Below are positions 1 through 3,794 of a stretch of DNA of 64,000 nucleotides, one piece after another (the stretch's first letter is position 1; the number at the start of each line of letters is the position of its first letter). The stretch is from positions 9,683,501-9,747,500 of the forward strand of contig NZ_CP097263.1 in NCBI RefSeq assembly GCF_028622115.1, read 5' to 3'. Origin of the DNA: Kutzneria chonburiensis (lineage in GTDB: Bacteria > Actinomycetota > Actinomycetes > Mycobacteriales > Pseudonocardiaceae). The notes beneath the pieces are model-generated. The model saw nothing but the letters and a program-made list of their open reading frames with translations, did not search any database and was not told the origin of the DNA. A program made the translations under genes and the position numbers.

Positions 1-2
1 CC

Positions 3-893
3 ACTGGTGCCGTGCTGGAGGCCATCGCCCCCGCCGGCGTCATCGACTCTCGCTTCGCTTCCGCCTTCACCTCGCTCGGCGGCGAGCCCTCTTCGGTCCG
101 CTCCTACCGGGAGTTCCTGTCCCACAAGGCATCCTCCGAGGGTGTGCGGCCCATCGAGATCCTCGCACCGCCCCTCGACGACCGTGCCGCCAACGCCGTC
201 CGCCGGCCGACTTATTGTCCACTATGGACAGGCGACTCCGACTGCTCCGGCTACCTGCCGGTTGCGGGTCGATACCTCCCCTTGGACCGCATCACTTTGC
301 GCCGCTCGGGAAGCCGCATCATCGCCGAGGACCCTTCCGGCACCGTGTTGTGGCCCATGCACCACGCTACCCGAACCCCTGTCGGCCCTTGGGGCTTGGT
401 CGTCACCTTGCTCACCGCCTCCGCGCCACGCGGGCCGTCGATCTCCTTCGGCAACCGGATGGCCGCCTTCCCGGACCGGAACTTCTTGCCGCGGATGGAA
501 ATAGCCGGCGGCCTTGTCCTTTCCGGTCGACACTGGCGGATCCGTGCTCCGCGGTCCTTTCGCGACCTGGTGGCGCTGGATCTTCCACGCTTTGTCTTTG
601 CCCGCAACGGGGGCAAGCCGCGGCCGGTGGACCTGCACAGCCTGGCCGCCGTACGCGACCTGGCCCGGCTGGGCGAGGAGATCGTGGTCGAGGAGATGCT
701 GCCGGACCCGGATCACCTGCCGCTCAAGGACGAGCGCGGTGAACCGGTCGCGGGGCAGCTGCTGGTGCGACTGCCGCACCGACGAGCCACCACCGCGTCG
801 GCGGTGGGGAATCAGGAAGGGGACAGTGGATGGAATCCGTCTTGGCCGTCACCGAACTGGACCGTCTCATCGAGGAACTGGACACCCGGATGA
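3..893 (+). CDS. Lantibiotic dehydratase (LanB), C-terminal part, 5' truncated by window edge
   Basis: The frame is open from the first bases, so the gene begins upstream; 296 residues are visible. The sequence matches the C-terminal portion of the LanB glutamylation domain (Lant_dehydr_N), which uses glutamyl-tRNA to activate Ser/Thr of a precursor peptide before elimination to dehydro-residues. Recognisable stretches are an LDSRF-like 'VIDSRFASAF' near the start, 'APPLDDRAANAVRRP', 'LPRFVFARNG' and 'VVEEMLPDPDHL'. No SpaB_C elimination domain follows, so it must lie upstream of the window or in another gene. The last ~20 codons overlap the precursor gene in another frame. The family assignment is solid; the full architecture cannot be seen. 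Confidence 0.85.
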   Translation, partial: TGAVLEAIAPAGVIDSRFASAFTSLGGEPSSVRSYREFLSHKASSEGVRPIEILAPPLDDRAANAVRRPTYCPLWTGDSDCSGYLPVAGRYLPLDRITLRRSGSRIIAEDPSGTVLWPMHHATRTPVGPWGLVVTLLTASAPRGPSISFGNRMAAFPDRNFLPRMEIAGGLVLSGRHWRIRAPRSFRDLVALDLPRFVFARNGGKPRPVDLHSLAAVRDLARLGEEIVVEEMLPDPDHLPLKDERGEPVAGQLLVRLPHRRATTASAVGNQEGDSGWNPSWPSPNWTVSSRNWTPG

Positions 894-976
894 CCGAGGC
901 CGCCCCGGAGGGCCGGGCGCCGGACTCGGCGATCTGCTCGCTGGTCGGCTGCGACATGAGTCACTGGCACTGCTGA
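830..976 (+). CDS. Class I lanthipeptide precursor peptide (LanA), 48 aa
   Basis: ATG at 830 follows a strong ribosome binding site (GGAAGGGG, 815-822) with 7-nt spacing. The product has an acidic, helix-prone leader (…VTELDRLIEELDTR…), a linker PEGRAPD, and a C-terminal core in which three Ser and three Cys alternate: SAIC, SLVGC, then DM, then SHWHC ending at the stop. Each Ser precedes a Cys at Ser-x2-Cys, Ser-x3-Cys, Ser-x3-Cys spacing, exactly what three non-overlapping lanthionine rings need. It sits between lanB and lanC, overlapping the lanB 3' end by 64 nt and ending just before lanC, so it is probably co-transcribed and co-translated with its modifying enzymes. Leader cleavage site and ring pattern are inferred. 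Confidence 0.8.
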   Translation: MESVLAVTELDRLIEELDTRMTEAAPEGRAPDSAICSLVGCDMSHWHC

Positions 977-1011: not shown

Positions 1012-1794
1012 GTGCTCGCGACGCTGCTGGCCGCCTCCGCGGATGGTGACGTGCGAGCCGCGGTGAGGATGGCGGTGCCGCAGTGGCTGGATGCCGCCGT
1101 GCGGCCGATGCGAAGCGTCGGCCTGCACGGCGGCATGACCGGCACGCTGTTCGGACTGGAGCTGCTGAGCGGCCTCCATCCGCCGGTTTCCCGCCTGGCG
1201 CACCGGGTCCGAGGCTGGCTGGGGGAGCGGCGGTTCGAAGAGTTCGATCTGATCGGCGGCACGGTCGGGGCCTGCCTGGCGGGGTGTCGGCAACCGGTCT
1301 GGTTCGAAGGGGAGGACACCGGACTGGCCCATGGGGCCGCCGGTGTGCTCCTTGTGTCGCTGCAGCCGGAGTTGATTTCCTGGCTGCTGAAGCAGTCCTT
1401 TGTGGACCAACAACGGCAGGGTTGGTGCTACGGCATTCCCGGCATCGCCTGGGCGCTGTGGACGGCCGGCGCGCGGACCGAAGCCGTGCGGCTGGTACGC
1501 ATTCTGTGTCAGACCTTCGATCCCGAGCTCAATCTGTACGGTGAGCCGGCCGACCGGCTCGGGATCTGTCACGGTGCCGCGGGTGTGCTGCTCATCGCCG
1601 ACGCCTTCGCCCGCGAAGGCGTGTCGGGGGCGAAGGTGCTCAGTGATCTGATGCAGACGTACCTGGTGGAACGCCTGGATTTGGTGGCAGGGCTGGACGA
1701 CACGCTGCTCCGTGGCGGAAGTGGCGTGCTCGCGGCGTTGCTGACGGTGCGGGGTGCCGACCGGCGCTGGCTCAGATGCCTTGGCCTGCGCTGA
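1012..1794 (+). CDS. lanC: Lanthionine synthetase C-like protein (LanC), compact
   Basis: LanC cyclases are zinc enzymes that add Cys thiols to dehydro-residues made by LanB. Six Gly-rich toroid repeats are visible (GLHGGMTG, LIGGTVG, LAHGAAG, CYGIPG, CHGAAG, LRGGSG). The zinc ligands are present: the Cys of WCYGIPG and the Cys-His pair of CHGAAG. With the GTG start at 1012 the protein is about 260 residues, shorter than the ~400 usual for LanC. No ATG lies between the precursor stop (976) and the first repeat; CTG at 973 (overlapping the precursor stop) is another possible start, and the frame is open far upstream. It ends 3 nt before a converging gene. Confidence 0.8.
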   Translation: MLATLLAASADGDVRAAVRMAVPQWLDAAVRPMRSVGLHGGMTGTLFGLELLSGLHPPVSRLAHRVRGWLGERRFEEFDLIGGTVGACLAGCRQPVWFEGEDTGLAHGAAGVLLVSLQPELISWLLKQSFVDQQRQGWCYGIPGIAWALWTAGARTEAVRLVRILCQTFDPELNLYGEPADRLGICHGAAGVLLIADAFAREGVSGAKVLSDLMQTYLVERLDLVAGLDDTLLRGGSGVLAALLTVRGADRRWLRCLGLR

Positions 1795-1797
1795 CTT

Positions 1798-3186
1798 TCA
1801 GTGCGCGGCGATGAGCTGGAGGGCGGCCAGGCCGACGAGCAGGGCAGGGCCGCGTAGCAGCTGACGGATGAGGTGGACGGGGACGGCGCCGAAGCCGGTT
1901 TCGAAGATGGCGCTGCCGCCGCCGTAGTCCATGGGCGGGCGGGTGGCCATGGCGTAGACCACGAGCACGGCACCGGCGGCGGAGATGACGACGGTGACGG
2001 ACGGGGCCAGCGGCAAGGCGAAGGACGTGAGGGCGCACCACACGATCGCCCCGACGGCGGGCAGCACGAGGTGGATGACCTTGAGGGACGCGTCGGTGCC
2101 GCCAAGGGAACGGCGCAGGGCGGCGGAGCCGGCGATGGTGCGCAGACCGCCGGCGAGGCGGTCGGCGGCGAGGTAAGCGGCCAGCAGCTGCACGGGACCG
2201 ACGGCGATGGGCGGCAGCGACACCGCGGCGAAGAACGGCACGGGCAGCAGAGCTGCCCACACGGCGATGGCGGCGGGATAGCGGCGCAGCCGGGCGACAT
2301 CGGCGAGGACGAAGGCCAAGGCCCGGCTGCCGCGCAGGCGTACGGAACGGACGCGGCCGATGCGGCGGGCCCGGCGCAGCATCAAGGCGGCGGACACAAG
2401 GGACAGGTCCAGCCACGCCGAGGAGACGGCGGCAGCCTGCACGAGATCGGTGCCGGCGGACAACGCGCCCCGGTGCAGCCGCGACAGCGACGTGTACCCG
2501 ACGGCGAGGGCGGCCACCACGAACCCGATTGCGGGCAGCGGGACGCGGTCGATCGGCACGAACAGGGCCGGCACGTCGAGCTGCAACGCCACGACGCCGC
2601 CCATCACCACCGCGACCCCGAGCAACACGCCGAAGCCGATCCGGAACTGCCGGAGCTCCCGGGCACTCCGCTGCGCGCCGGCGGTCAGGGAGGCCAACGC
2701 CACGCCGAACTCGAAGCCGAGCACTCCGGTGACCGGCAGGTTCACCAGCCAAGGCGGGTAGATCGCCGTCAACCCACCGGCCAGCAGCGCCCCGCCGATG
2801 CCGGCGATCACCAGGGTCCGCACGTACGTCGGCAGCAGCGCCGACCGCCGGTCGACCGGACTGGCCAGGATCCACGTCTGAGCGGCCGCACCGGCCCAGA
2901 TCGGCCCGACTGCCAGCAGCGCCTGCCCGAAGGCCGCTACGGCCGCCACAGCCAGCGCCAGGGCCATCCACGACTCCGAGGCGGCGGCGTGCGGGACCGG
3001 CGGCACGGACAGCGCGGGCACCGCTCGGGTCTTGATCACGGCCTCGGTCACCAGCCCGCCGGCCATGCCCACGTACAACGCGGTGTCGGACAGGTCGTAC
3101 AGCCGCCGGAAGAACGACCACGGCTTACGCCGCCGCCGCATGGCCCGCAGCTCGGACCGAACCCGGCCAGCGGTGACCGCAGTCAC
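1798..3186 (-). CDS. DUF6297-like polytopic membrane protein, ABC transporter permease partner
   Basis: A 462-residue hydrophobic protein with roughly ten or more predicted membrane segments, resembling the DUF6297 group found next to a lone ABC ATPase in actinomycetes. The start GTG (3186) overlaps the TGA stop of the upstream ATPase gene, so the two are translationally coupled and probably form one transporter. An Arg-rich N-terminus (MRRRRKPWSFF) precedes the first helix. Position beside the lan genes suggests export of, or self-protection from, the lanthipeptide, but the gene faces lanC, so this is inference. Substrate unknown. Confidence 0.7.
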   Translation of the reverse strand: MTAVTAGRVRSELRAMRRRRKPWSFFRRLYDLSDTALYVGMAGGLVTEAVIKTRAVPALSVPPVPHAAASESWMALALAVAAVAAFGQALLAVGPIWAGAAAQTWILASPVDRRSALLPTYVRTLVIAGIGGALLAGGLTAIYPPWLVNLPVTGVLGFEFGVALASLTAGAQRSARELRQFRIGFGVLLGVAVVMGGVVALQLDVPALFVPIDRVPLPAIGFVVAALAVGYTSLSRLHRGALSAGTDLVQAAAVSSAWLDLSLVSAALMLRRARRIGRVRSVRLRGSRALAFVLADVARLRRYPAAIAVWAALLPVPFFAAVSLPPIAVGPVQLLAAYLAADRLAGGLRTIAGSAALRRSLGGTDASLKVIHLVLPAVGAIVWCALTSFALPLAPSVTVVISAAGAVLVVYAMATRPPMDYGGGSAIFETGFGAVPVHLIRQLLRGPALLVGLAALQLIAAH

Positions 3187-3794
3187 AGCCCAACCTCGAT
3201 GTACACGTCGGCCACGGCCTCGATCAGGTCCGGGTCGTGCGAGGCCATCAGCACCGAGCCGCCGTTGGCCTTCTCGGCGTTCAGCCGTGACGCCAACCAC
3301 GCCCGGCCCTCCACGTCCAGCCGCTGCTCGGGCTCGTCCAGCACCAGCAGCGACCGGGGTCGCACGAAGCACGAGGCCAGCGCCAGCCGCCGACGCTGAC
3401 CGGACGACAGCGTGGCCGGCAGTTGATCGCGCTGCTCGACGATGCCCAGCTCGGCCAGCACCGCCTCGACCACGTCCGGAGACTGGCCGTGGGCCAGGGC
3501 ACACAGCGCCAGGTGCTCGCCGACCGACAGGTCCGGGAAGAAGTCCACGTCGTCCAGCACGCAGGCCATCGCCGCCCGGGTGTCCGGCGACGTCTCCGAC
3601 ACCGGGAAGCCGTTCAGCGTGATCCGCCCGGCGTCCGGCACGTCGGTGCCGGCCACGCAGCGCAGCAGCGTCGTCTTGCCGGACCCGTTGGGCCCCACCA
3701 CCGCCGCGCCCTCGCCCGGCGCCAGCTCGAAACTCAGCTCGTGCAGCACCAGCAGCCCGCTGAAGCCCCGTGTCAGCCCGTCCACCCGCAACAC
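3183..3794 (-). CDS. ABC transporter ATP-binding protein
   Basis: A 203-residue nucleotide-binding subunit with Walker A (GPNGSGKTT), signature (LSSGQRRRLALA), Walker B (LLVLDEP) and a C-terminal H-loop (ASHDPD). It is a single ATPase domain of the CcmA/drug-exporter type, and would energise the coupled membrane protein whose start overlaps its stop codon. Start is GTG 3794 with a G-rich Shine-Dalgarno (GGGGGG) about 5 nt upstream. The transported substrate is unknown; a role in lanthipeptide immunity or export is plausible from position only. Confidence 0.88.
   Translation of the reverse strand: MLRVDGLTRGFSGLLVLHELSFELAPGEGAAVVGPNGSGKTTLLRCVAGTDVPDAGRITLNGFPVSETSPDTRAAMACVLDDVDFFPDLSVGEHLALCALAHGQSPDVVEAVLAELGIVEQRDQLPATLSSGQRRRLALASCFVRPRSLLVLDEPEQRLDVEGRAWLASRLNAEKANGGSVLMASHDPDLIEAVADVYIEVGL

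Follow-up and report, generated by a model that had tools for sequence, protein, structure and literature searches.

This study provided evidence that the 48-codon open reading frame (ORF) lanA, located at positions 830–976 of a 64,000-nucleotide stretch of DNA from the soil actinomycete Kutzneria chonburiensis (contig NZ_CP097263.1, positions 9,683,501 to 9,747,500; hereafter, the window), very probably codes for a precursor peptide (LanA) that belongs to the SapT-type family of class I lanthipeptides, in which the dehydratase LanB is split. As the gene order, the leader motif, and the lyase residues Lys63 and Leu112 match those of SapT-like Streptomyces clusters, the cluster in the window is regarded as a divergent branch of this family. 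The kind of system is already known and the novelty of the locus is moderate; its Ser-only core is new.

The 48-residue peptide, MESVLAVTELDRLIEELDTRMTEAAPEGRAPDSAICSLVGCDMSHWHC, starts from an ATG placed 7 nt behind the Shine-Dalgarno-like sequence AGGAAGGGG and has an acidic leader, followed by a predicted core in which three Ser (S33, S37, and S44) alternate with three Cys (C36, C41, and C48) and Thr is lacking. The preliminary description of the window, made from the letters alone, had claimed a 48-codon gene with a ribosome binding site, an acidic leader, the alternating Ser and Cys, and a 64-nt overlap with the end of lanB, all of which were confirmed. The ring-forming core, being Ser-only and ending in an aromatic W-x-C, is new, and non-overlapping rings S33-C36, S37-C41, and S44-C48 are predicted for it. 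The Ser/Cys composition by itself is weak evidence beyond chance, because 11 of the 299 window ORFs of 30–80 aa, lanA included, have at least three Cys and at least three Ser/Thr in their last 20 residues.

Sequence profiles were compared with the 527 small ORFs of the window. The profile built from seven non-Kutzneria precursors gave lanA as the sole significant match (E = 7.1e-13; next, 0.64), which rules out a chance ORF, and the profile built from five SapT-type Streptomyces precursors also gave lanA as its sole significant match (E = 2.7e-4; next, 0.83). No second LanA-like ORF matched either profile among the 141 small ORFs of the 17-kb upstream stretch L007 (window position equals L007 position minus 15,000); namely, the different precursor upstream of lanB that the preliminary description had considered was not found there. 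The 48-aa peptide as query matched 14 of 297 genomes of the family at E ≤ 0.01, including its own genome, and tblastn located a lyase and a LanB at all 13 loci of the relatives and a LanC at 12 of them, with every LanB being 39–83% identical to that of the window. The exception for LanC was Actinokineospora fastidiosa, which has apparent LanC remnants across frames and a core without a regular Ser/Cys pattern. These data support the claim of a lanthipeptide precursor between lanB and lanC, as the profiles match and the relatives share the position, the leader, and the Ser/Cys cores; the tBLASTn-type search that had been proposed along with this claim revealed the ORF at the same place in the relatives, with its leader conserved.

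A 20-row precursor profile matched 21 of 390 family genomes at E ≤ 0.001, whereas across the phylum 2 of 396 genomes matched, own included; in a genus that is presumably Streptomyces (some of its precursors equal those of named Streptomyces loci), the number was 11 of 295. Matches of both LanB and LanC lay within 1.5 kb of the precursor in 23 of the 26 loci listed, a set partly overlapping the other loci. We also observed three ORFs with the same leader motif and no LanB or LanC match within 1.5 kb (L106, L107, and L110, in genomes G047 and G001), which are possibly unlinked precursors modified in trans. In addition, at L101/L104, L103/L105, and L049 at least two precursors lie in tandem, alike in leader and unlike in core.

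Two features that had been considered particular to lanA are shared within the family. The Trp-His before the last Cys, described as distinctive, reflects a family trait, since a Trp stands two or three residues before the C-terminal Cys in 11 of 13 aligned precursors. The overlap between lanB and lanA, which is 64 nt in four Kutzneria (the window and three congeners), is weakened as a special feature because 7 of 15 other loci have overlaps of 4–217 nt (4 nt in four Streptomyces, 88 nt in S. rimosus, and 111 and 217 nt in two Nonomuraea); the remaining eight have a gap.

Concerning detection, no NCBIfam model, nor any lanthipeptide model of Pfam, matched any of 20 such precursors, lanA among them, at E ≤ 0.1. 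Therefore, pipelines relying on such models can overlook these precursors, whereas the leader profile finds them. A Pfam match of LanA to MYRF_ICA (E = 2.6e-4, under its cut-off) was set aside, being judged a coiled-leader similarity. As the lanC frame is open to GTG 826 across the whole of lanA, automatic annotation could report a 322-aa LanC and pass over lanA, and the oversight by gene finders suggested in the preliminary description is plausible.

The comparison of four Kutzneria species, which covered the stretch from lanB to lanC and left out the lyase gene, demonstrated that lanA is its conservation peak: the nucleotide identity was 92.5% in lanA and 80.3% in both lanB and lanC. The 40 nt just upstream of lanA were equally conserved (92.5%). 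The last 21 codons of lanB, which overlie lanA, have no recognisable conservation in distant relatives.

The operon runs in the order lyase, lanB, lanA, and lanC, with an overlap of 4 nt between the lyase gene and lanB. The complete lanB encodes 706 aa from an ATG at L007 position 13773 (L007:13773-15893), starting 1,228 nt upstream of the window, and is preceded by a stand-alone glutamate lyase of 252 aa (L007:13018-13776; PF14028, E = 4.1e-14). Thus, the gene upstream of lanA that had been called lanB does encode a LanB-type enzyme, but it supplies just the glutamyl-transferase portion of a dehydratase whose lyase portion is encoded by a separate gene farther upstream. The reading frame of lanC extends back to GTG 826, homology to other LanCs sets in at about position 961, and the first in-frame ATG, GTG, or TTG after lanA is the GTG at 1012. 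LanC is short yet intact-looking; its zinc ligands were found, and structure prediction gave a cyclase fold. Searches of PDB sequences with the single LanB or lyase, and with a LanB profile, gave no match at E ≤ 0.1. The features are collected in Table 1.

Table 1. Features of the lanA locus and its neighbourhood in window coordinates
Feature	Position	Strand	Basis
Shine-Dalgarno-like AGGAAGGGG	814..822	+	sequence; identical in five close Kutzneria loci listed
lanA, 48-aa precursor; leader about codons 1-32, core about codons 33-48	830..976	+	homology, profiles, conservation; cleavage point predicted
predicted core SAIC-SLVGC-DM-SHWHC	926..973	+	sequence and alignment; putative ring topology
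lanB 3' part, glutamyl-transferase half of split LanB	1..893	+	PF04738, E = 3.2e-10 on the longer open frame
lanC cyclase, start uncertain	1012..1794	+	PF05147, E = 7.8e-11
DUF6297 gene, convergent with lanC; product possibly an ABC permease; start uncertain within a frame open to 3504	1798..3168	-	PF19814, E = 2.3e-71
ABC ATPase adjoining the DUF6297 gene	3183..3794	-	PF00005, E = 4.8e-30

The lyase carries a signature that links the cluster to SapT. SapT-type lyases have a Lys at the site of a Tyr in NisB and a hydrophobic residue at the site of NisB Arg826 (PMC9011353, PMC9486935), and a net syn-elimination is described for the SapT lyase SptBb (PMC9890492). The lyase of the window cluster has K63 and L112 at these sites; the residues were placed by aligning the lyase with MibB and MadB through a profile, and with 23 further lyases. 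Among the 24 lyases aligned, Lys is present in 21, Leu112 in 20, and both in 17, including all six Streptomyces rows; of the three rows without this Lys, two (Kutzneria orphan lyases) have Gly and the third is truncated. We also observed a mixed syn/anti signature, in which Lys63 is kept and Arg or Lys occupies site 112, in Actinokineospora fastidiosa, two Actinophytocola, and a Saccharothrix metagenome-assembled genome (MAG) (L040-L043). In predicted fold, the lyase comes closer to the elimination domains of LanB enzymes than it does to pyridine synthases.

Several points of likeness tie the window to the spt cluster of Streptomyces lavenduligriseus Tu901, which produces SapT: both combine a lyase, a glutamyl transferase, and a LanC, and no protease gene belongs to the spt cluster or was recognised in the window cluster (PMC9011353, PMC9890492). 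According to the same reports, SapT has one lanthionine (Lan) and three methyllanthionines (MeLan), and Thr35 is the first modified Thr of SptA, where no Cys occurs before or at residue 37. A scan of genome contigs with the LanB alignment gave 26 loci; six Streptomyces loci (L050-L053, L056, and L057) have the order lyase, LanB, LanA, LanC and SapT-like cores. The leaders are homologous, with ELTELDTLISDLEERIT in the Streptomyces loci and AVTELDRLIEELDTRMT in LanA of the window, and the replacement of Tyr by Lys and of Arg by Leu in the lyase is common to both. The SapT label of the Streptomyces cores rests on the described features and on the SapT sequence, the letters of which were not found in the main text of PMC9011353.

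The window differs from the SapT-type clusters mainly in the core, which is polar and aromatic with a W-x-C end and lacks both Thr and a hydrophobic tail, whereas SapT-like cores have a long hydrophobic run; morphogenetic surfactant activity is a SapT-type trait. As the core has no Thr, no MeLan is expected in the product, and D-allo-L-MeLan, the hallmark of SapT derived from Thr, cannot be formed from it; the K. viridogrisea core has one Thr. Moreover, LanC of the window is shorter than in SapT-type clusters, and LanB is 32–36% identical to the Streptomyces ones. The split-LanB clusters of Pseudonocardiaceae (Amycolatopsis, Actinokineospora, Actinophytocola, and Saccharothrix) agree with the window in gene order and leader, and they often have a Trp just before the C-terminal Cys, as well as Ser-only SLLLCS cores. 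They differ from it in core sequence and ring spacing and have a gap of 25–70 nt between lanB and lanA in the six loci measured. No description of this branch or its cores was found in the open-licence literature searched, as far as the texts were available. Among other class I systems, coi has a lyase with the syn signature, as in the window, but coi and olv encode a full-length LanB and a methyltransferase, with an extra lyase fused to the methyltransferase in coi (PMC9486935). Nisin-type systems have a full-length LanB and an FxLD leader motif, whereas LanB is split here and FxLD is not present in the LanA peptide.

Based on this evidence, the following pathway can be proposed. The leader helix (consensus E-L-x-E-L-D-x-L-I-x-x-L-D/E-x-R) would be recognised by LanB, which would then glutamylate Ser33, Ser37, and Ser44 from glutamyl-tRNA. 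The upstream stand-alone lyase, having the Lys/Leu signature of syn-acting lyases, would eliminate glutamate to leave three dehydroalanines, to which the short zinc cyclase LanC may add Cys36, Cys41, and Cys48, resulting in three small lanthionine rings. For removal of the leader, a protease gene outside the cluster would be needed, as has been suggested for SapT, and export may perhaps proceed via the neighbouring DUF6297/ABC pair.

In the passages of the literature examined, SapT is the only product described for a split LanB whose lyase is syn-acting. The present data suggest that the SapT-type leader and enzymes also serve unrelated cores in Pseudonocardiaceae, and the locus offers a clean test of the action of a syn-acting lyase on Ser-only substrates. 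A further idea, which we consider rather doubtful, combines three thoughts: that a syn-type lyase has been kept with its signature intact on a Thr-less substrate, where the known stereochemical outcome cannot show; that the Pseudonocardiaceae branch is a class of its own, whose small peptides are not surfactants, are mostly Ser-only, and end in an aromatic W-x-C ring, possibly with a metal-binding or signalling role; and that the split dehydratase of the window cluster and the one encoded by an orphan pair at 5.44 Mb may divide the work between them in trans in Kutzneria.

Several points weigh against the assignment of lanA to a SapT-type lanthipeptide. The product is a prediction from the genes, the match of the SapT-type profile to lanA spans the leader only, the third-position GC of the cluster is about 0.8 and thus under that of most neighbouring genes, and the lanB frame extends into lanA. 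Aligned LanC is about 45–95 residues shorter than the non-congeneric and K. viridogrisea homologues, so that partial decay is conceivable. The lyase also has a conserved H231 (FHWNR), present in the Streptomyces rows as well, which may or may not correspond to the catalytic His of NisB that is said to be missing in SptBb. In one congener (G087, L012/L088), a TAG lies in the lanA core and lanB is split over two frames, unless these are assembly errors; the genome is without a DUF6297 gene, and the place beside lanC that the DUF6297/ABC pair takes in the window is occupied by a short-chain dehydrogenase gene. Provided that the assembly is right, this is what would be expected of a cluster on its way to being lost. 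That the window cluster is likewise a decaying or relic copy, whose peptide is translated and no longer modified and in which the overlap of lanB and lanA and the shortened LanC are decay steps, appears unlikely: the state of G087, the low third-position GC, and a long stem branch in the LanB tree would suit it, but lanA, lanB, and lanC are open in four species, the catalytic residues are kept, lanA is more conserved than its neighbours, LanC is still predicted to take the cyclase fold, and comparable overlaps are seen elsewhere in the family.

It is very unlikely that the product is something other than a three-ring lanthipeptide, either through dehydration alone or because the cluster belongs to another split-LanB class such as the thiopeptides. 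Split LanBs are common in thiopeptide pathways (PMC9011353), and the solved structures resembling the lyase in fold include pyridine synthases, but no YcaO gene lies in the cluster and the two YcaO genes of the genome are both more than 0.6 Mb away from it, which argues against a thiopeptide; one SpaB_C-type gene was seen in the operon, and a further [4+2] pyridine synthase was not searched for genome-wide. We regard as extremely improbable the notion that there is no separate lanA and that GTG 826 begins a longer LanC, leaving the 48-codon frame accidental. The lanC frame is indeed open from GTG 826 in the window and four congeners and would have its ribosome binding site in common with lanA, and within the genus the codon-position and synonymous/non-synonymous counts were too few to decide the frame. 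In the relatives, however, lanA is a separate ORF before lanC in a homologous frame, and pairwise scores placed the lanA frame at the top of nine frame pairs against all four distant relatives tested, once merely by 78 to 76, with the +1 frame close behind in three of the four; the profile match given above likewise favours lanA.

Returning to lanA as a precursor served by a split LanB, the history of the enzymes within Kutzneria was followed in a LanB tree of 25 rows, in which the outer groups have long branches and the composition of the window row is odd. A single clade with a long stem (0.6) holds the four Kutzneria genes of the window type; its sister clade includes K. viridogrisea, a Kutzneria MAG, and an orphan LanB that is the second one in Kutzneria; the rows of other Pseudonocardiaceae, Streptomyces, and Nonomuraea lie outside both Kutzneria clades. 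We also observed that this orphan type is represented in the same genome as the window by a lyase and glutamyl transferase pair at about 5,441,850-5,445,263 (L081 3850-7264). No lanA was found at this pair by tblastn or profile, there is no convincing short ORF after its lanB, and no lanC is detectable there. The pair is syntenic in five Kutzneria genomes, own included, and the genes on either side of it also border the complete cluster of K. viridogrisea. Its LanB is about 91–94% identical between species, as compared with 78–83% for LanB of the window cluster, and Gly replaces Lys63 in the two full-length orphan lyase rows aligned.

No transporter, protease, or immunity gene was recognised inside the operon. 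The DUF6297 gene was found in four of seven Kutzneria genomes, namely the four with an intact window-type cluster, and an ATP-binding cassette (ABC) ATPase like that of the window follows lanC in 2 of the 13 loci of relatives, where the partner proteins encoded downstream, two of which were scanned, matched no Pfam family and were therefore not DUF6297. The pair is a possible but unproven exporter or immunity partner, the association being suggestive only. A promoter scan did not find a sigma-70-like site, and the same scan gave two terminator-like sites as against 0.9 expected. For the genome of K. chonburiensis SMC256T, antiSMASH class I lanthipeptide regions have been reported, together with BAGEL matches to class II and one other bacteriocin (PMC10232511).
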